From Paracoccus onchidii (GTDB taxonomy: Bacteria > Pseudomonadota > Alphaproteobacteria > Rhodobacterales > Rhodobacteraceae): a DNA stretch of 64,000 nucleotides. The stretch spans positions 62,001 through 126,000 of the forward strand of contig NZ_JAQBIE010000011.1 in NCBI RefSeq assembly GCF_028294535.1, in the 5' to 3' direction. Below, piece by piece: positions 49,887-59,799 of this stretch. The first letter of the stretch is position 1; each line of letters begins with the position of its first letter. The position numbers and the translations under genes were made by a program. The notes beneath the pieces were generated by a model. The model searched no databases and was not told the origin of the DNA. It saw only the letters and a list, made by a program, of their open reading frames with translations.

Positions 49887-50935
49887 GTGTTTGATCCCAC
49901 AGTTTGATGGTGCGATCCTTTCTTTGGAATGGAAGGATGCCCTATGGGACAAGTTCGTCACGGAAGCGCCACGACCACGCACGCAGTCAGAGCAGCAATA
50001 ATGAGGGCGGCCCGCCATCGGTCCGAGGGCCTGCCCGAATAATCGCAAGCTTCGCTCGCGACGCTGAGCCGGGAGCTGGGGATCAATCTGAAGACGGTTG
50101 CGAAGTGGCGTAAACGGCAGACGGTCGAAGATCTCAAGACCGGCCCAAAGGAGCCACGTTCGACGGTCCTCACGGAGGCTGAGGAGGCGGCCATCGTCGC
50201 GCTTCGGCGCCACACGCTGCTGCAGCTTGACGATTGCCTCTATGCCCTTCAGCCGTCCATCCCGCACCTGACACGCTCGGCGCTGCACCGTTGTCTGCAG
50301 CGGCATGGCATCTCACGCCTGCCTGACGTCGAGGGCGACAAACCGAGGAGGTCGAAGTTCAAACGCTACCCGATCGGCTTCTTCCACATAGACATCGCCG
50401 AAGTGCAGACTGCTGAAGGAAAGCTCTTCCTGTTCGTTGGCATCGACCGCACGAGCAAGTTTGCCGTTACCCAGCTCGTCGAGAAAGCAGACAGGAAGAC
50501 GGCCTGGGAGTTCCTGCAACACATGCTCGAAGCTGTGCCATATCAGGTCCACACCGTCCTCACTGACAACGGCATCCAGTTCGCTGAGCAGCCCCGGGAC
50601 CGGAACACTGCCTATTCTCGGCCTATGCGTTTCGACATGATCTGCGAGGCCAACGGGATTGAGCACCGGCTGACCAAACCCAATCATCCTTGGACCAACG
50701 GACAAGTCGAACGGATGAACCGCACGATCAAGGAGGCCACCGTCAAACGCTTCCACTACGACAGCCATGATCAGCTGAGAACGCACCTCTCGGACTTCAT
50801 CGCAGCATACAACTTCGCGCGCCGGCTCAAGACCCTCAACGGGCTCACACCCTACGAGTACATCTGCAAGATCTGGACTTCAGAGCCGGACAGATTCATC
50901 TTGAACCCGATCCACCAGATGCCGGGACTGAACAC
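49887..50935 (+). mobile_element. IS481-family insertion sequence
   Basis: A 1049-base element bounded by GTGTT...AACAC ends, with imperfect terminal inverted repeats (about 15 of the first 24 bases match, beginning GTGTTTGATCCC on the left and GTGTTCAGTCCC on the right complement) and CTAG duplicated on both sides. The transposase DDE signatures are FHIDIAEVQT, LTDNGIQFAE and NGQVERMNRTIKE. Size, ends and target agree with IS481. It sits between the convergent rutR and a second tetR-type gene. The transposase is interrupted, so the copy is probably inactive unless helped. Confidence 0.88.
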
Positions 50936-50939
50936 CTAG
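49944..50939 (+). pseudogene. IS481-family transposase, interrupted by an in-frame stop
   Basis: The reading frame starts at 49944 (MGQVRHGSATTTHAVRAAI) and is normal until about 50000, where 42 bases unlike the family (ATG AGG ... GAA TAA) replace the two codons expected before SQASLATLSRELG. They end with a stop TAA at 50040-50042, after which the same frame continues open to the end with an intact helix-turn-helix and DDE domain. AATAAT repeats border the strange stretch (49997 and 50038). The final TAG stop at 50937-50939 is part of the CTAG target duplication, so termination depends on the insertion site. Confidence 0.75.
50936..50939. repeat. Right target-site duplication CTAG
   Basis: CTAG follows the right IS end AACAC and matches the left copy at 49883-49886. 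It supplies the stop codon of the transposase frame. Confidence 0.75.
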
Positions 50940-51712: not shown

Positions 51713-52273
51713 TCAGGATCCCCAGCTGCGGATCGGCCCACAATCCATATGTACGAAATTCGAGCGCGAATACTTTCCGACGCCGCCTGCCTTGCAGGCC
51801 ATCGCCGCCTTGTACATCTGGTTGACCGAGCGCGACTTGAGCCGCAGATCTGCGGCCTTGCCCTGCACATGCAGCGAATTCTTGGCCACGCCGCGCGAGC
51901 GACGGCGCAGCATCGCGTTGGTTTGGGGCGAGCGATAGCCCGACAGCATCATGTAAGGTTCGTTGGTTTGCAGCAGCCGATGCGAGGCCGCCGCAACGTC
52001 GATCGTGCGCGGGTCAATGCCGATCGCCGTGCCTGTGCGCCAGTCGCGCATGAAGATGTTCACTTCGTTGAGGGCTTCGCGGACGTATTTTCCATCGACC
52101 CAGTAAACGGTATCGATGCTTTCGCCGGTGCGGCCATTATACATCTTGATGCGCCGCACATCACCGGCCCCGCGAAGGAAACCGAATGCATTTGCCATCA
52201 CTGGTGCAGCTGTTGCCGAGGTTGCCGCAAACACACCAAGCACGCCGCGACGCGAGATAAGGTCCATTGTCAT
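51713..52273 (-). CDS. YcbK family (DUF882) Tat-exported cell-wall protein
   Basis: A 186-residue protein with a twin-arginine signal (MTMDLISRRGVLGVFAATSA) and the DUF882/peptidase M15-like domain: YMMLSGYRSPQTNAMLRRRS, VAKNSLHVQGKAADLRL and FVHMDCGPIRSW, with His and Asp residues of the zinc site of M15 peptidases (SLH...AxD...HxD) preserved. It probably acts on peptidoglycan. ATG at 52273 fits the Tat signal; an in-frame ATG at 52297 exists. It is divergent from an L,D-transpeptidase gene, the same pairing as ycbK-ycbB in E. coli. Confidence 0.86.
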   Translation of the reverse strand: MTMDLISRRGVLGVFAATSATAAPVMANAFGFLRGAGDVRRIKMYNGRTGESIDTVYWVDGKYVREALNEVNIFMRDWRTGTAIGIDPRTIDVAAASHRLLQTNEPYMMLSGYRSPQTNAMLRRRSRGVAKNSLHVQGKAADLRLKSRSVNQMYKAAMACKAGGVGKYSRSNFVHMDCGPIRSWGS

Positions 52274-52573
52274 GTCAGATCGCCTGTCCTGCTTCATTCT
52301 GCTGACCGCATTCCTTGCGGCTTAGACGGGTTTAGCCCCGACTTGCTAACAATATGTCAAATCTTGGTGGTTTTATAAACAGATTCCTGTGGAGCCTGCC
52401 TGATTTCTGCTATCATAGGCGAGTTTTCGCCGAGCCCTTGTCTTTGTTGCGACGCTGCCTCCTGGCGTGGCTGGTTTGCAACAGTTGTGTTCGCGGCATG
52501 GTTGAGGTGGGTGCAAGCTGGTGCCGCGCAGAATTTGCAGGCAAATTATTGGTAGTTGAGTATCGAGGTTGAC
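52274..52573. other. Divergent promoter region of ycbK-like and transpeptidase genes
   Basis: A 300-base region without a gene. Minus strand: TTGACA (52355-52360) with GCTAAA 18 bases downstream (52331-52336) for the ycbK-like gene. Plus strand: an extended -10, TGCTATCAT (52408-52416), for the transpeptidase operon, giving a leader of about 150 bases that includes a small GGCGA/TCGCC hairpin. Spacers and boxes are read by eye only. Confidence 0.4.
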
Positions 52574-54208
52574 ATGTTGCGTATTTCCCAAAGATTTGCC
52601 GTGTCCTTATTTGCCCTGTTGGGGCTGGCCGGCTCTGCCGTGGGGCAGGGGGCGGTTCAAGTCAGTGCGGGCTCGGGCGCGCTTCTCTCGCCCAGGTTGA
52701 ATTTTTCGGCTGCGGAAATGGAGCTGGCGCAGGCCGTGGCAGGGCAGCCTTACCTTGCGGAATTCTATGGCGGCAACGGGTTGAAGCCGGTGTTTCAGGG
52801 TGCCGAGGGGCGCGCATTGCGCGAGGCGTTGCGAAGGGTGGCGGTGGATGCGCCGCAGCATGGTCTGCCCCGGTCCCGCTATCGCCCGACTGCCTTGAAG
52901 ACGACAGAAAACGGTTTGCGCGCAGAGCTGCTTTTTGCCGGTATGCTGGCGCGTTACCTTTCGGACATGACTGGCGGGGCGCTTGATCCGCAATCGGTCT
53001 CGGATCAGAACCATCGCCAGGTCCGTCGACCTGCGATCGGGCCCTTGATGGCGGCGTTCGTGGATGCGGCGTATCCAGTTGCGTTTCTGCGCCAGCAAGC
53101 GCCTGCCCATCCTGCCTATACCGCCCTTCAGGATGCGCTTGCGGGTCCGCGGAAATTGACCGTGCCCACACATCTGCCGCCCGCACCCGAGGCGGTTTGG
53201 CGCGTGGGTATGCGCGGCAAAGGGGTGCTTCCCTTGCGTGATCGCTTGGCCAGCATCGGGTTCGGGGCCGAGGTTGCCGATCCGATGCTGTATGATGCCG
53301 CCCTGTCCATAGCGGTTTCGCGCTATCAGGGGGCGGTCGGTCTGTCAGCGGATGGGATCGCCGGGCCGAATACGATTCGCTATCTGAATGGCGACATTGA
53401 CGCGACGACAGATTGGCGGAGCCGCAAGATCGTCGCCGCGCTTGAACGTATGCGCTGGTTGGGCGGTGAAGATCTGGAGGCGCGGCATGTCTGGGTGAAT
53501 ATCCCCGAATATTCGGCGCGGATCGTTGATGGCGGTGCCGAGGTTTTCAATACGCGGGTCGTCGTGGGCAAGGCCGAGGCCAGACTTCAGACGCCAGAGT
53601 TTTCGGACAGTATGGAATATGTGGTTGTCAATCCGCGCTGGAACGTGCCGCGCTCGATCACCGTGCGTGAATACTTGCCGCGCCTCAAGGCCAACCGCCA
53701 TGCGCTGTCCCATCTGGATGTGGTCGATGGCAGGGGCGGGGTGGTTGCGCGCGGCAGCATCGATTTCGGCCGCTACACGGCCGCCAGCTTTCCTTACCGA
53801 ATGCGACAGAAACCGGGGCCGAGCAATGCGCTTGGTCTGGTCAAGTTCATCTTTCCAAACCGTTGGAATATCTATCTGCACGACACGCCAAGCAAGCATC
53901 TGTTTGGCAATCGCACCCGCGCCTATTCGCATGGATGCGTGAGGGTCGGAGACCCTTTCGACCTGGCCCGGGCATTGCTGTCGCGGCAAAGCAGCGATCC
54001 GGCGGCCTTGTTCCAGCGCGCGTTGGATAGCGACAGGGAAAGGTGGTTGAAACTGACGCCCGAGGTGCCGGTGCATCTGGTCTATTTCACCGCCTATCCT
54101 GACAAGTCCGGCCGGATCCGCTATTTTGAGGATGTCTATGGGCGTGATGACGCTATCCTGCGCGGATTGGACGCCATCGCACTGGATTCGGCGGGCGAAA
54201 GCGAATAA
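52574..54208 (+). CDS. L,D-transpeptidase, YcbB (LdtD) type
   Basis: A 544-residue exported enzyme. Signal peptide residues 1-25, an N-terminal scaffold domain ([20 protein letters not shown]), a peptidoglycan-binding domain ([24 protein letters not shown], in part, about residues 235-275) and a YkuD catalytic domain with the motif [16 protein letters not shown], catalytic Cys455. It makes 3-3 cross-links or attaches proteins to peptidoglycan. ATG at 52574 has GAGG at a good distance. It leads an apparent operon of four with an LpxD paralogue, an ACP and a ketoacyl synthase; gap to the next gene is 23 bases. Confidence 0.92.
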
Positions 54209-54231
54209 GTCGGCACTTGAAAGAGGGTGCG

Positions 54232-55335
54232 ATGAAATCAGTAAATATCGGTGAGTTGGCGCGAGCGCTGGATGCGCGCAGCTGGGGGGATCTGACCCTG
54301 CCTGTGACTGGCGCGGCAGAGCCCGCCTCGACTGGTCCCGTGGGGCCCGAAGGCGGTATGATTGCGATGGCCATGTCGCCAAAATATGCCGACGCTCTGC
54401 AACCCGGAAGTATGGCGATCCTCGCCGAAGGAATGGACCCAGAGGTATATGGGTTGAAGGCGGCGATATTCGCGCCTCGTCCGCGCTTGCTGATGGCGGG
54501 GCTGACGCGGGCTTTTGATCCCGGGCTCGATATCGCGCCGGGCATTCACCCCAGCGCGATCGTCGACCCTTCTGCACGGATCGGTGAGGGGGTTGCGATT
54601 GCGCCCCTGGCCGTGATCGGCGCGAATGTGCGGATCGGAGCAGGGTCCCGGATCGCGGCCCATGTCTCGATCGGACGGGATTCCGTTCTGGGCGAGAACT
54701 GTGTCATCCATCCGGGCGCAAGGATCGCGCATGGCGTCAAGGCCGGTGACAGGCTGATCATGCAGCCGGGGTCGTCGATTGGTGGGGACGGGTTTTCCTT
54801 TGTCACCCCCGAGGAATCGGGGATCGAGGAAATCCGGCGCACCCTTGGCCCCCGTGCCGATATTCACGCCCAACACTGGACGCGCATCCATTCGCTGGGT
54901 GGTGTCGAATTGGGTGATGATATCGAACTGGGCGCCAACTCGACCATTGATCGCGGCACCATTCGCGCCACCCGAATCGGGTCGGGAACCAAGATCGACA
55001 ATCTCGTCCAGATCGGCCACAACGTCGAGATCGGCACGGATTGTCTGCTCTGTGGCCTGGTCGGTGTCGCGGGATCGTCGCGTATCGGCGATCGGGTGGT
55101 TCTGGCCGGACAGGTCGGGGTTTCGGACAATATCGTCATTGGCGACGACGTGATCGCCGGTGGCGCAACCAAGATCTTCAGCAGGGTGCCCGCGGGGCGG
55201 GTCATTCTGGGCCATCCGGCCGTGAAGATGGAAACGCAGATGGAAATTCAGAAAGCGATGCGTCGCTTGCCACGTTTTGCACAACAGCTCGCCAAGCTTC
55301 AGGAAACTGTTACACGCCTGTTGGAAAAGGGCTGA
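54232..55335 (+). CDS. LpxD-like N-acyltransferase (left-handed beta helix)
   Basis: A 367-residue hexapeptide-repeat acyltransferase of the LpxD group. An N-terminal sugar-nucleotide-binding-like domain of about 100 residues precedes many [LIV]GxxxxI repeats ([20 protein letters not shown] and onwards) and a C-terminal helix that would carry the ACP contact. His263 in [11 protein letters not shown] is at the position of the E. coli catalytic His239. The second histidine (E. coli His276) aligns by my counting with Asn300 in GVSDN, a deviation from typical LpxD. It is not in the usual bamA-fabZ-lpxA context and may be a specialised paralogue. Confidence 0.85.
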
Positions 55336-55347
55336 ACAGGAGGCCTC

Positions 55348-55614
55348 ATGACCGACACGATCAAATCCAGAATCACAGCCATCATCGCGGAACAGGCGAT
55401 GCTGGAACCCGATCAGGTGACTGACGACGCGACCCCCGAGGATCTGGGCATTGACAGCCTCGGCCTGGTCGAGTCGATTTTCGCATTGGAAGAGGAATTC
55501 GACATCACGATTCCCTTCAATGCCAACGAACCCGAGAAATCCGAGTTTGACATCACGAATATGGGCACGATCATCGCGGCGGTTGAACGCCTGGTGGCGC
55601 AGAAAGCTGCATGA
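55348..55614 (+). CDS. Acyl carrier protein
   Basis: An 88-residue ACP. The phosphopantetheine site is Ser37 in DLGIDSLGLVESIFALEEEF. Compared with the housekeeping AcpP it has a longer loop after helix II (NANEPEKSEFDITNMG) and weaker similarity at the N-terminus, so it is a specialised carrier. It begins 12 bases after the LpxD-like gene with AGGAGG and overlaps the ketoacyl synthase start by four bases (ATGA). Confidence 0.93.
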   Translation: MTDTIKSRITAIIAEQAMLEPDQVTDDATPEDLGIDSLGLVESIFALEEEFDITIPFNANEPEKSEFDITNMGTIIAAVERLVAQKAA

Positions 55615-56948
55615 GTCCCAAGAAGTCAGGTAAGAAGGCCGCCCGAAACGAAGGCGCGGCCGAGAGTACAGCAGCATCGGGATCTGCCAGCGCAGCACCT
55701 GAAATCGTCAAACCCCTTGCCGGCGAAAGCTACAAGGGATTGCGGCGCGTGGTCATCACCGGTGCAGGCACGATCAACGCGCTTGGACATGATGTCGATA
55801 CGACGCTTGGCGCCTTTCGCGAAGGGCGCTGCGGGATCACGCAGCTCAGCTTTCGCGATGTCGAGCGGTTGTCGATCCAGATCGGTGCGCAGGTGCATGA
55901 CTGGCGACCCGAAGATTACTTCAATCGCCAACAGATCCTTCTGTATGACAAGTTCACCCAGTTCACGCTGTTGGCCGCAAAGCAGGCGGTGGCCCAATCG
56001 GGTCTTAGCTTCGTTGGCGCGCTGGGGCTGCGTTCGGGTGTCATTCTGGGGACCGCTGGTGGCGGATTGAACACCTGGGACGAAAACTATCGAGCCGTCT
56101 ATGAAGAGGGGAAGAACCGTGTTCACCCCTTTGTCGTGCCCAAGTTGATGAACAATGCCGCGGCCAGCCACGTGTCGATGGAATTCGGCCTGCGCGGGCC
56201 TGCATTTACCGTTGCGACCGCTTGTTCCAGCTCGAATCACGCGATGGGCCTTGCGTTTCAGATGGTGCGGTCGGGCGCGGCGCAGGTCATGTTGACCGGC
56301 GGTTCGGAAGCGATGCTTTGCTTTGGGGGCGTCAAGGCCTGGGAAGGTTTGCGCGTCATGTCCAAGGATGCGTGCCGACCCTTCAGTGCCAACCGGAACG
56401 GGATGGTGCAGGGTGAAGGGGCGGGGGTCTTTGTATTCGAAGACTATGAATCGGCCCGTGCCCGTGGCGCCGAGATCCTTGCCGAAGTGGTCGGGTTCGC
56501 AATGTCCTCGGATGCGCAGGATATTGTCATGCCATCTGCTCAGGGGGCCGAGCGTGCGATTACCGCCGCCATCGCCGATGCAGGGCTGAATCCCGAGCAG
56601 GTCGGTTATATCAACGCGCATGGCACCGGCACCGCGGCGAATGACAAGACCGAATGCGCCGCCGTGGCGCATGCGTTTGGGCATCACGCCGACAGCCTGA
56701 TGATTTCATCCACCAAGTCGATGCATGGCCATCTGATTGGCGGGACAGGTGCCGTTGAACTTCTGGCCTGTATCATGGCGCTGCGCGACGGGGTGATCGC
56801 CCCGACGATAGGATATCAGGAACCTGATCCGGAATGCGGCCTTGATGTGGTGCCCAACGAAGCGCGGGATGCCAAGGTTGATGCCGTTTTGTCCAATGCG
56901 TTTGCATTCGGGGGGTTGAATGCGGTGATTGCATTGCAACGCGTTTAG
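55611..56948 (+). CDS. Beta-ketoacyl-ACP synthase II-like (FabF family)
   Basis: A 445-residue condensing enzyme. The catalytic triad is Cys205 in TVATACSSSNHAMG and histidines in INAHGTGTAANDKTE and TKSMHGHLIGGTGAVE. The C-terminal NAFAFGGLNAVIAL is typical. The first 40 residues (SPKKSGKKAARNEGAAES...) are a low-complexity Lys/Ala/Ser extension not found in housekeeping FabF. It probably elongates an acyl chain on the neighbouring ACP for delivery to the LpxD-like enzyme. Followed by a bidirectional terminator. Confidence 0.92.
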   Translation: MSPKKSGKKAARNEGAAESTAASGSASAAPEIVKPLAGESYKGLRRVVITGAGTINALGHDVDTTLGAFREGRCGITQLSFRDVERLSIQIGAQVHDWRPEDYFNRQQILLYDKFTQFTLLAAKQAVAQSGLSFVGALGLRSGVILGTAGGGLNTWDENYRAVYEEGKNRVHPFVVPKLMNNAAASHVSMEFGLRGPAFTVATACSSSNHAMGLAFQMVRSGAAQVMLTGGSEAMLCFGGVKAWEGLRVMSKDACRPFSANRNGMVQGEGAGVFVFEDYESARARGAEILAEVVGFAMSSDAQDIVMPSAQGAERAITAAIADAGLNPEQVGYINAHGTGTAANDKTECAAVAHAFGHHADSLMISSTKSMHGHLIGGTGAVELLACIMALRDGVIAPTIGYQEPDPECGLDVVPNEARDAKVDAVLSNAFAFGGLNAVIALQRV

Positions 56949-56972: not shown

Positions 56973-57000
56973 AAACGGCGCCCGAATTCGGGCGCCGTTT
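56973..57000. terminator. Bidirectional intrinsic terminator
   Basis: A perfect 28-bp palindrome centred on GAATTC, with GGCGCCCG/CGGGCGCC arms and A/T ends giving T runs on both strands, lies between the convergent ketoacyl synthase and IalB-type genes. Confidence 0.85.
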
Positions 57001-57023: not shown

Positions 57024-57743
57024 TTAATTCGCCGCAGCGCTGGCCTGATCTGAATATTCCGACAATTCGTTGAACGCCGCCGTGAAGCCCGACAGGGATA
57101 GTTCAAGCTTGACCGGGTTTTCCGGGTTTCCGCCGAACGGCATCAGCGAAAGATTCGCGACATTTCCGCCTTTCAGCGCCGTCAGTTCACCCGCGGTAAA
57201 CCCGACGCGGGCCACACATCCGACCGGCGCACAGAAGCTGAACGGATATTCCTGTGTCTTGCTGCTGTCGATCGAGAACCCCAATCCCTTGATCAGATCG
57301 GTTTCCAGCGGCGCCACGATGGTCGCGCCCGCGGCAACATTGCCATTCTTCAGCGGGATCAGCGTCATTTCAGCGACCGAATTGCCCTCGCCGTCCTGCA
57401 ACAGTTGATACAGTTCGCAAGGATCCTCTCCTTGTGCGGCGCGAATACAGCGCAAGGTCCAGTCGGTATGGGTCGATTTCACGTAATAGCTGCCGACCTG
57501 CGGTTCATCCGATTCCGCGGCGGCTTCACCCTCTGCGGTCGGGGTTTCATCGGTTGCCGTGGTTTCATCCGCTGCGGGGGCCTCTGCTGCGGGGGCTTCG
57601 GCGGGTTGTTCTGCCTCGGTCGCAGCCTGTTCAGCGGGTGCGCTGGTTTCGTCAGAGGCTTCCGGGGTGCTGTCCTGGGCAAACGCCGGCGCCGCAACAA
57701 GAGCCAGCGCTGCCAGCAAAGTCTGCGAGGGTTTGATCGGCAT
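57024..57743 (-). CDS. Invasion-associated locus B (IalB) family protein
   Basis: A 239-residue exported protein. Signal peptide residues 1-22 (ALVAAPAFA), then an acidic Ala/Glu/Pro/Thr-rich linker of about 55 residues, then the IalB domain: THTDWTLRCIR, EDPCELYQLLQDGEGN, SFCAPVGCVARVGF with the paired cysteines of the family, and ANLSLMPF. In Bartonella IalB is linked to invasion; in free-living Rhodobacterales the role is unknown. ATG at 57743 with AAAGGGAA upstream. Confidence 0.88.
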   Translation of the reverse strand: MPIKPSQTLLAALALVAAPAFAQDSTPEASDETSAPAEQAATEAEQPAEAPAAEAPAADETTATDETPTAEGEAAAESDEPQVGSYYVKSTHTDWTLRCIRAAQGEDPCELYQLLQDGEGNSVAEMTLIPLKNGNVAAGATIVAPLETDLIKGLGFSIDSSKTQEYPFSFCAPVGCVARVGFTAGELTALKGGNVANLSLMPFGGNPENPVKLELSLSGFTAAFNELSEYSDQASAAAN

Positions 57744-57777
57744 GTCTATGTCTTCCCTTTGCTCGATAGTCCACGCC

Positions 57778-57806
57778 CGCCTAGCATGTCTGTAGCGCTT
57801 TGTCAG
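57778..57806 (-). promoter_or_regulatory. Candidate promoter of the IalB-type gene
   Basis: Minus strand CTGACA (57801-57806), 17-base spacer, TAGGCG (57778-57783) with an extended TGC before it. 35 bases before the ATG. Confidence 0.35.
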
Positions 57807-57937
57807 TCCACAAGAACCGCGGCGCGCATCAACATGGGTTGAGTGTTGTTGAAACCATGAGATGTCAGGCTTGCGGTTGCGGGCCTGCATTCCCGTTTTC
57901 AGTAGCAGGGCGTGCGCAGAAAGTGGCGCCGGAATTG

Positions 57938-58009
57938 AAAAGGGCCGTGGTTCAACCACGGCCCCGACGCTAAGGCGTCCTCTCCCTGCCGGACGGGCCG
58001 GTCATCATT
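57938..58009 (-). ncRNA. Candidate small RNA of about 72 bases
   Basis: On the minus strand a promoter (TTGACG at 58039-58044, 17-base spacer, TAGCGT at 58016-58021) predicts a start near 58009. The transcript would contain the hairpin GACGC-CTTA-GCGTC and end in a strong intrinsic terminator (stem 57942-57950 with 57956-57964, then TTTT at 57938-57941). No open frame or ribosome site fits. The ends are inferred by eye; the family is not recognised. Confidence 0.5.
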
Positions 58010-58015
58010 GCCTGC

Positions 58016-58044
58016 ACGCTAGTCGCGCAACCGTGATCCGTCAA
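58016..58044 (-). promoter_or_regulatory. Promoter of the candidate small RNA
   Basis: TTGACG (58039-58044) and TAGCGT (58016-58021) with an optimal 17-base spacer on the minus strand, not followed by any protein gene before a terminator. Confidence 0.45.
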
Positions 58045-58070
58045 CAGCCTATACAGATAGGTTCAATCAC

Positions 58071-58096
58071 AAAAAAGCCGCGCCCGGGGGCGCGGC
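58071..58096 (-). terminator. Intrinsic terminator upstream of the HerA-like gene (minus strand)
   Basis: GCCGCGCC and GGCGCGGC arms (58077-58096) followed by TTTTTT on the minus strand. No protein gene ends here; it would close a second short minus-strand RNA that starts within 58100-58230 and carries CCTTCCTCCC ahead of the stem. A clear promoter for that RNA was not found. Confidence 0.6.
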
Positions 58097-58233
58097 AGTC
58101 CAACAGGGAGGAAGGTCCGGACCGGACGAGGGTACCGGACAGTTCCCATACTGGCACATGGCGGTTAATTTTGTATTGTCGCAGCGTGCGTTGGGGCGCA
58201 ACAGGGTGGAAGATGCAGCAGGAGGCGGCGCGA

Positions 58234-59799
58234 ATGACGAATGTGCTGAATGAACAGGCGGGCACGATTTTCGTTGGCGGGGGTGGAAAGAATTACGGTG
58301 ATCCACAATCACTGTTGCTGAAATACGCAAACCGTCACGGCATGATCGCCGGGGCGACCGGAACCGGAAAGACGGTTACCTTGCAGACCCTCGCAGAAAG
58401 CCTTTCGCTGGCGGGCGTGCCGGTGTTCTTGTCTGACGTCAAAGGGGATCTTGCGGGCCTGTCACGCGCCGGGTCCGAGCAGGGAAAGCTGCATGATGCC
58501 TTTGTTAAACGCGCGGATCAAATCGGATTGACGCTGGATTATCAGGCATTTCCAGTTACGTTCTGGGATGTCTGGGGCGAGCAGGGTCACCCCGTGCGCA
58601 CCACGCCCGCCGAGATGGGGCCGCTGCTTTTGTCGCGGTTGCTGGGGCTGACCGATGCGCAGGAAGGCGTGATGAATATCGCATTCCGCGTGGCCGACGA
58701 GCAGGGATTGGCCCTGCTGGATCTGGATGACTTGCAGGCCATGCTGGTTTGGGTTGGCCAGAACGCCAAGGAATTGTCGCTGGAATACGGGAATATCAGC
58801 ACCGCGAGTGTCGGGGCAATCCAGCGCGCATTTCTGGTGTTGGAAAATCAGGGCGGCAATCACCTGTTCGGAGAGCCGGCACTGGATCTGGCGGATATGC
58901 TGACGACCGACAAGGATGGTCGAGGTACGGTCAACATTCTGGCCGCGGATCGCCTGATGCATTCGCCGCGGCTATACGCGACCTTCCTGTTGTGGCTGTT
59001 GTCAGAGCTGTTTGAACAGCTGCCCGAGGTCGGCGATCCAGAGCGGCCCAAGATTGCCTTCTTCTTCGATGAAAGCCACTTGTTGTTCGACGATGCGCCC
59101 AAGGCGCTGATCGACAAGGTGGAACAGGTCGCCAGATTGATTCGATCCAAAGGTGTCAGCGTCTGGTTCATCAGCCAGAATCCTGCGGATATTCCCGAGG
59201 ATATTCTGGGGCAGCTGGGAAATCGGGTGCAGCATGCGTTGCGTGCGTTTACCGCCAAGGATCAGAAGGCGCTGCGTCTGGCGGCGGAAAATTATCGCAC
59301 CAATCCCGAATTCGATATTGCCCAGGCAATCCAGAGCGTGGGGACGGGCGAGGCCGTGACATCGCTGTTGGAACACAAAGGCGTGCCCGGTATCGCACAG
59401 CGTTGCCTTGTGCGCCCCCCCTTCAGCCGCTTGGGGCCGATCGATGAAACCGAGCGGGCACAGACAGTCGATGGATCCCCGCTGCGCGCCAAATACTCAG
59501 AACGGCTGGAACGAGAATCAGCCAAGGAAATTCTGACCTCTCGCGCCGAGGCGGCAGCCAAAGAGCTTGCCCAGAAGGCCTCTACCGCGCCCGAGGATGA
59601 TCTGTTCAACATGGATCGCCCCGAATATCGCAACGCCCGTCGCTATGAACCCACATCCAAACCGAAGACCCGCAGCAGATCTTCTCGCAGCGACAGCGTT
59701 GCCGAGACATTCGCTAAAAGCCTGGCGCGCCAATTGGGCACAAGATCCGGGCAGGCCCTGGTCAGGGGTGTGCTTGGATCATTGTTCCGCGGTCGCTGA
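58234..59799 (+). CDS. HerA-like ATPase (DUF853)
   Basis: A 521-residue P-loop ATPase of the HerA/FtsK group. Walker A is GATGTGKTVTLQTL at about residues 38-51, Walker B IAFFFDESHLLFDDAPK, and further motifs VWFISQNPADIPEDILGQLGNR (in part) and DQKALRLAAENYRTNPEF. The C-terminal 90 residues are Arg/Ser/Lys-rich. This group (DUF853) is widespread and lacks a proven function; DNA processing or export is possible. ATG at 58234 has AGGAGG nine bases upstream; another ATG at 58213 is poorer. Confidence 0.88.
   Translation: MTNVLNEQAGTIFVGGGGKNYGDPQSLLLKYANRHGMIAGATGTGKTVTLQTLAESLSLAGVPVFLSDVKGDLAGLSRAGSEQGKLHDAFVKRADQIGLTLDYQAFPVTFWDVWGEQGHPVRTTPAEMGPLLLSRLLGLTDAQEGVMNIAFRVADEQGLALLDLDDLQAMLVWVGQNAKELSLEYGNISTASVGAIQRAFLVLENQGGNHLFGEPALDLADMLTTDKDGRGTVNILAADRLMHSPRLYATFLLWLLSELFEQLPEVGDPERPKIAFFFDESHLLFDDAPKALIDKVEQVARLIRSKGVSVWFISQNPADIPEDILGQLGNRVQHALRAFTAKDQKALRLAAENYRTNPEFDIAQAIQSVGTGEAVTSLLEHKGVPGIAQRCLVRPPFSRLGPIDETERAQTVDGSPLRAKYSERLERESAKEILTSRAEAAAKELAQKASTAPEDDLFNMDRPEYRNARRYEPTSKPKTRSRSSRSDSVAETFAKSLARQLGTRSGQALVRGVLGSLFRGR

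Follow-up and report, generated by a model that had tools for sequence, protein, structure and literature searches.

The locus described here raises the question why lpxD, a gene of lipid A biosynthesis, is found together with genes for an L,D-transpeptidase (LDT), an acyl carrier protein (ACP) and a FabF-like 3-oxoacyl-ACP synthase (KS). It is located in a stretch of 64,000 nucleotides of the Paracoccus onchidii genome (in the following "the window"; coordinates are given in Table 1). The four genes lie on the same strand, with 23 bases between the LDT gene and lpxD, 12 bases between lpxD and the ACP gene, and a four-base overlap (ATGA) of the ACP and KS genes that places the KS start inside the ACP stop. 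This is exactly what had been described in an earlier note on this DNA, and the four genes are probably co-transcribed. The ACP and the KS most likely represent a private acyl supply for the N-acylation of lipid A, and it appears that lpxD has moved out of its usual lpxD-fabZ-lpxA cluster into an operon with an ACP of its own.

The earlier note had regarded the lpxD gene as a paralogue. The genome (4.08 Mb in 83 contigs, 99.99% complete) was searched with the LpxD model TIGR01853, and a single gene exceeded the cut-off of 242.5 bits, namely that of the window (263.6 bits). As no second gene reached the cut-off, a paralogue was ruled out, a result that the note itself had named as contradicting its view. 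The lpxA locus of the same genome comprises fabZ-lpxA-lpxI-lpxB without lpxD and has other genes upstream, whereas Sinorhizobium meliloti retains rseP-bamA-lpxD-fabZ-lpxA-lpxI-lpxB. The sole match and the lpxA cluster devoid of lpxD identify the window gene, to judge from its sequence, as a housekeeping lpxD that is unusual in its location. Its predicted activity is the N-acylation of UDP-3-O-acyl-glucosamine. Like the canonical LpxD enzymes of the Raetz pathway, those of E. coli, P. aeruginosa and S. meliloti, the protein has the His for catalysis, the Gly of the oxyanion site and the Asp that binds the acyl chain, but it differs in its operon context and in an insertion near the acyl site. 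The N-terminal domain PF04613 had no match at E 0.001 in the window protein or in the genome, though a whole-length model covered residues 3-360. A single-sequence AlphaFold model had a mean pLDDT of 46 and was not used for fold searches. The available part of PMC4103551 contains a proteome table for starvation and light, which lists the Roseobacter litoralis LpxD with 38.27 kDa and a value of -6.67, which shows that a relative expresses an LpxD of this size.

The conservation of the arrangement was analyzed with 295 Rhodobacteraceae genomes, 260 of which were of better quality. LpxD was found in 285 of them at E 1e-20 (256 of the 260 better genomes), and a KS orthologue in 265 at E 1e-150 (243 of the 260). 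In a class-wide sample the KS was present in only 5 of 385 genomes at E 1e-145, and all five were Rhodobacteraceae. The neighbourhoods of 30 LpxD loci among the matches listed were checked with flanks of 1.5 kb. The six best-scoring loci (L013-L018) contained another type of LpxD, which adjoined an LpxA match and had no LDT, ACP or KS in these flanks. The remaining 24 loci were of the operon type: 23 of them had the LDT, 22 had ACP and KS, and the complete set of four genes was present in 21. Among the matches listed, the LpxD and KS matches were 287-423 bp apart in 74 of the 77 genomes with both coordinates (not in the other three, G124, G143 and G154), a distance that leaves room for one ACP gene. 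A bait protein yielded 67 named loci, and the genomes of 12 of these were searched. All four genes were present in each of the nine Rhodobacterales genomes with LpxD, including Cereibacter johrii, Rhodovulum, Roseivivax and Salipiger; at least one of the nine apparently overlaps with the family set (G296 seems identical to G253, to judge from the coordinates). The other three were two Ectothiorhodospiraceae and Rhodothalassium salexigens DSM 2132 (L068/G298), which had no LpxD match at E 1e-20. Furthermore, five plasmid records encode proteins with 60-80% identity to LpxD, and the four that were opened (Paracoccus ferrooxidans, P. versutus, P. pantotrophus and Pseudorhodobacter turbinis) all had the same gene order. 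As this gene order recurs throughout the family, the arrangement is not due to chance but is a real, family-wide operon, and in this respect the earlier note, which had proposed one operon of acyl-synthesis genes and an LpxD-like enzyme, was supported.

The three Paracoccus records (L011, L225, L226) carry the operon on replicons of 1.5-1.7 Mb that are designated plasmids (pFER4, pTAV4, pPAN3). These would be chromids if the operon lpxD is the only one there.

For the ACP of the operon, no listed ACP model gave a score above its cut-off, including TIGR00517 for AcpP (52.7 of 70.45 bits) and PRK06508 (NF005079; 34.7 of 83 bits), which we take to be the model for AcpXL-type ACPs. Its site has DS in 51 of 51 orthologues, followed by L, M or V and, in 46 of 51, by G; AcpP has Asp at the position of this G. 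The KS did not reach the FabF equivalog TIGR03150 (453.7 of 493.75 bits), but it belongs to the broader subfamily PRK07314 (437.6 bits, cut-off 387). The catalytic set Cys-His-Lys-His is intact: the Cys, the first His and the Lys were found in all 50 rows and the second His in 49, the remaining row having a gap. In a tree of 50 KS rows and 7 FabF-like rows, the KS orthologues formed a clade separate from the FabF rows, and the P. onchidii genome additionally contains a fabF (628 bits) as well as other KS and ACP matches. The low-complexity N-terminal extension of the KS that had been noticed earlier exists and comprises about 43 residues. It had been taken as a sign of specialisation, but most other orthologues among the matches listed align only from about residue 38-45, and thus it was rejected as a conserved feature.

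The pair of ACP and KS was also inspected in 18 exceptional genomes, 14 of which came from the 30 without KS at E 1e-150. The operon ACP was found in 10 of the 18, and in all 10 a KS adjoined it. It was not found in the other eight (G209, G164, G028, G014, G003, G136, G022, G159), which yielded AcpP-like matches or nothing. Six of the 14 genomes do have the ACP together with a KS that had missed the strict limit, and therefore a diverged KS without the ACP is possible in these eight. In genome G165 it is the KS beside the ACP that is split over two frames (L202, G165:C1:909476-909718; 77% and 88% identity), due to either a frameshift or an assembly error.

A dedicated ACP with a ketoacyl synthase, presumably serving lipid A, is reminiscent of the rhizobial AcpXL/FabF-XL very-long-chain system for lipid A. 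In contrast to it, the operon ACP scores far below PRK06508, the KS is closest to general FabF models, and in the window neither an additional fabZ nor a gene for a secondary acyltransferase adjoins the pair. The sphingolipid ACP of Rhodobacteria is likewise specialised for a single lipid pathway, but according to the available part of PMC9386255 this pathway is a different one, that of serine palmitoyltransferase.

The product of a KS is a 3-oxoacyl-ACP, and no reductase or dehydratase gene adjoins the KS in the window, in L011 or in L173-L175. This argues for amide-linked 3-oxo-tetradecanoate (3-oxo-14:0) as the favoured product. In the proposed mechanism, condensation by the KS would combine a C12 acyl group with the malonyl carried by the operon ACP, and the ACP would shield the resulting 3-oxo-C14-ACP from reduction by FabG. 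LpxD would then transfer the 3-oxo-C14 chain to the 2-amino group of UDP-3-O-acyl-glucosamine, which would result in amide-linked 3-oxo-14:0 in lipid A, while LpxD would still accept 3-hydroxy-14:0 from AcpP. A private supply that delivers 3-oxo-C14 to LpxD is the best single explanation of the gene content, although we would put its chance at slightly less than even. Somewhat more tentatively, it is proposed that the amide-linked 3-oxo-tetradecanoyl group found in Rhodobacter-type lipid A has its genetic origin in this operon, and that the identity of the donor ACP, not later modification, diversifies lipid A. The lipid A of Rhodobacter capsulatus carries 3-oxo acyl groups at both amides, and the compound eritoran retains a 3-oxo acyl group. 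Eritoran is a TLR4 antagonist that was modelled on the lipid A of Rhodobacter sphaeroides, according to the available parts of PMC7956469 and PMC5769089. The 3-oxo acyl groups of Rhodobacter lipid A are stated in the accessible text of PMC5923411, and they have been known chemically for decades (1991 study cited in PMC5852877, as far as its text is available). PMC5923411 also points out that the procedure ordinarily used to release lipid A fatty acids missed the 3-oxo acid. No title or beginning of an abstract in the literature searched, mostly without subscription papers, names a gene for this group, which may be in print elsewhere. The main text of an R. sphaeroides Tn-seq study mentions neither lipid A, fatty acid, acyl carrier, peptidoglycan, lipopolysaccharide nor fabF. 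The operon thus offers a four-gene, family-wide and easily deleted candidate source for the 3-oxo group.

Several points, which are found in this and some of the following paragraphs, weigh against a supply of 3-oxo-C14 to LpxD. One is that a review gives the lipid A of R. sphaeroides with 3-hydroxy-14:0 only, at both amides (PMC7956469, in the part available). Others come from LpxD itself, for which 45 operon rows were aligned, one genome being counted twice. The E. coli residue numbers given here were assigned by way of the P. aeruginosa row. The equivalents of Asp232, Asn233, His239 and Gly257 are kept in 45 of 45 rows, whereas the position of Gln236 is occupied by Gln in 29 and His in 16, and that of His276 by Asn in 28 and His in 17. 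According to the available excerpt of PMC6286764, His239 is catalytic, Gly257 has the oxyanion role, and Asp232 and Gln236 of the E. coli enzyme bind the 3-hydroxyl of the acyl chain. The residues that contact the 3-hydroxyl are thus largely kept, and therefore the sequence gives no sign of 3-oxo selectivity. Moreover, genome G014 keeps the LDT and LpxD genes while the operon ACP was not found in it.

The second active-site His had been reported to be replaced by Asn300, and the alignment with the P. aeruginosa protein verified this. In the same excerpt, the counterpart of His276 in the Chlamydia enzyme is described as being in contact with the pyrophosphate of UDP; in the E. coli enzyme, the H276A exchange lowered kcat 32-fold, and the backbone of Phe183 contacts acyl chains (PMC6286764). 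As the operon rows vary between Asn and His at this position, Asn300 was rejected as a marker of specialised chemistry; the Asn seems to be a tolerated change within the family and gives no clue to the product. A better mark of the lineage appears to be an insertion of about 19 residues directly after the Phe183 equivalent. This segment has 30-44 residues in all 45 operon rows (41 in 35 of them), compared with 22 residues in P. aeruginosa, in six LpxDs of the other type from the family and, by eye from the stretch shown, in S. meliloti. Its place near the acyl-contacting Phe183, like the conservation of His239, Gly257 and Asp232, was counted in favour of the supply of 3-oxo-C14 to LpxD.

A further point against it is provided by a gammaproteobacterial order. 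In the part of PMC5923411 that is available, amide-linked 3-oxo-14:0 is given for Spiribacter salinus and for Halorhodospira halophila, the latter under the name Ectothiorhodospira halophila. The order was sampled via an Aquisalimonas genome, as NCBI taxonomy places Spiribacter and Aquisalimonas in one family, and 51 of the 54 genomes had LpxD at E 1e-25. None of 28 lpxD loci had an ACP or KS within flanks of at most 1.5 kb, an unlinked pair not being searched for; fabZ and/or lpxA adjoined lpxD in 26 of them, and lpxD stood alone in two (L153, L158). Therefore, the 3-oxo group can apparently arise without this arrangement, and the linkage with ACP and KS was no longer regarded as a hallmark of 3-oxo lipid A in general. 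One Ectothiorhodospiraceae genome, G301, has two full-length LpxD genes (L136 on G301:C123 and L125 on G301:C151), one of them outside the lpx cluster.

The retained Asp for the 3-hydroxyl, the Spiribacter order and G014 would all fit another explanation, namely that ACP and KS only set the chain length. They would provide 3-hydroxy-C14 (after FabG) for LpxD in cells whose bulk fatty acid synthesis extends to C18, and the 3-oxo group would arise otherwise, via LpxD taking intermediates of fatty acid synthesis or via later oxidation. The rhizobial AcpXL and its synthases, which make a special chain, would be a parallel. We regard this as unlikely: in many bacteria ordinary fatty acid synthesis gives C14 3-hydroxyacyl-ACP to LpxD, genes for a reductase or dehydratase do not adjoin the KS in the window, L011 or L173-L175, and at the position of I108 of E. 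coli FabF, which limits the chain length, 39 of 50 KS rows have Gly, which does not suggest a short pocket.

The operon also varied in lpxD itself. Seven genomes (G124, G143, G154, G116, G142, G101, G229) have LDT, ACP and KS genes without lpxD between them, and therefore the pair of ACP and KS is not tied to this LpxD. In G124, G143 and G154 the block DUF882-LDT-ACP-KS-IalB-HerA is otherwise unchanged (L173-L175) and lpxD lies beside lpxA elsewhere in the genome; G116 and G142 likewise have a separate lpxA-lpxD. In the KS tree, in which several forks are weak and from which the G054 row was left out of the change count, the seven were scattered: the best tree required seven changes, and a single clade was rejected (p-AU 4.5e-8). 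Therefore, on more than one occasion lpxD has disappeared from the operon or has been replaced at another place, with LDT, ACP and KS being kept. All seven had been found via the KS or the ACP, so they show that retention occurs, not how frequent it is. Of the six genomes with the other type of LpxD, five keep the ACP and KS.

This retention is what would be expected if ACP and KS served a target other than LpxD, for example a different envelope lipid or an envelope protein that carries an acyl chain, and lpxD were present only for the shared regulation of envelope synthesis; the scatter over the KS tree and the otherwise identical block in L173-L175 would agree with it. Such a target is nevertheless quite unlikely in our view, because lpxD most often lies immediately upstream of the ACP gene, because five of the seven genomes have another LpxD that could use the operon ACP, because retention was partly ascertained by the search itself, and because no match to the ACP was obtained in G028 (86% complete), the sixth of the genomes with the other type of LpxD.

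Two of the seven, G101 (L203, G101:C1:922601-922861) and G229 (L210, G229:C4:421699-421959), are 99-100% complete and have no LpxD at E 1e-20. Either a very diverged N-acyltransferase or a loss of normal lipid A would account for this. They are among 10 family genomes without LpxD at this limit, two others of which (G164, G209) are also without the operon ACP. In G054 the operon seems to be split, as ACP-KS (L208, G054:C62) and LDT-LpxD (L020, G054:C60) are on different contigs with no partner in the fetched flanks. Pathways to diaminoglucose lipid A involve a Gfo/Idh/MocA oxidoreductase and a DegT aminotransferase. Such a pair was observed near lpxA-lpxD in G154 (L183:4733-7003), which suggests diaminoglucose lipid A in some Rhodobacteraceae; none was seen in L182 of G143, for which four ORFs were scanned.

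The remaining gene of the operon encodes the LDT. It shares the YkuD, scaffold and peptidoglycan-binding domains with E. coli LdtD (YcbB), and an SHGC motif is present by eye. In contrast to LdtD, its gene is in an operon with lpxD, and its score was below the cut-off of PRK10594 (NF007891; 195.7 of 425 bits), which we take to be the LdtD/YcbB equivalog. The earlier note had proposed an acyl-chain module coupled to cell-wall linkage; in this reading a special acyl chain would be joined to peptidoglycan through the LDT, for example as a tethered lipid. The LDT gene indeed stays beside ACP-KS in the seven genomes without lpxD between them, and therefore the neighbourhood is meaningful. Nevertheless, a coupling of this kind is very improbable, since LDTs act in the periplasm and LpxD, ACP and KS are cytosolic. 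Furthermore, a compromised outer membrane leads to the activation of LdtD in E. coli (PMC6428754, in the part available), and therefore a common expression of the LDT and lpxD genes suffices as an explanation for the operon. Co-transcription would set peptidoglycan cross-linking and lipopolysaccharide synthesis together. The overall frame of the earlier note, an acyl-synthesis and transfer module coupled to cell-wall linkage, was partly supported.

Table 1. Features of the operon and its surroundings in the window
Feature	Position	Strand	Basis
Peptidase_M15_2 (DUF882) gene, divergent	51713..52297	-	flank common to relatives examined
L,D-transpeptidase (LDT), YcbB/LdtD-like, 544 aa	52574..54208	+	ORF; domains YkuD, Scaffold, PG_binding_1
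LpxD, UDP-3-O-acyl-glucosamine N-acyltransferase (predicted), 367 aa	54232..55335	+	hexapeptide repeats, LpxD models
Operon ACP, putative dedicated acyl carrier protein, 88 aa, DSLG site	55348..55614	+	PP-binding domain
FabF-like 3-oxoacyl-ACP synthase (KS), 445 aa	55611..56948	+	ketoacyl synthase domain, catalytic residues
Perfect 28-base palindrome, possible bidirectional terminator	56973..57000	.	read from sequence
IalB-family protein gene	57024..57959	-	flank common to L173-L175
HerA-like ATPase ORF	57862..59799	+	flank common to L173-L175

A single strong terminator had been postulated at the end of the operon. A perfect palindrome is indeed present 3′ of the KS gene, between the convergent KS and IalB genes, but its strength had been judged by eye only, it was absent from the output of a terminator scan, and its tail is poor in T. 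The 5′ part of the HerA-like ORF overlaps with the IalB ORF, so that a later true start is probable. Upstream of the operon region, the ORF at 50403-50939 has, by eye, the appearance of a transposase with an integrase core.

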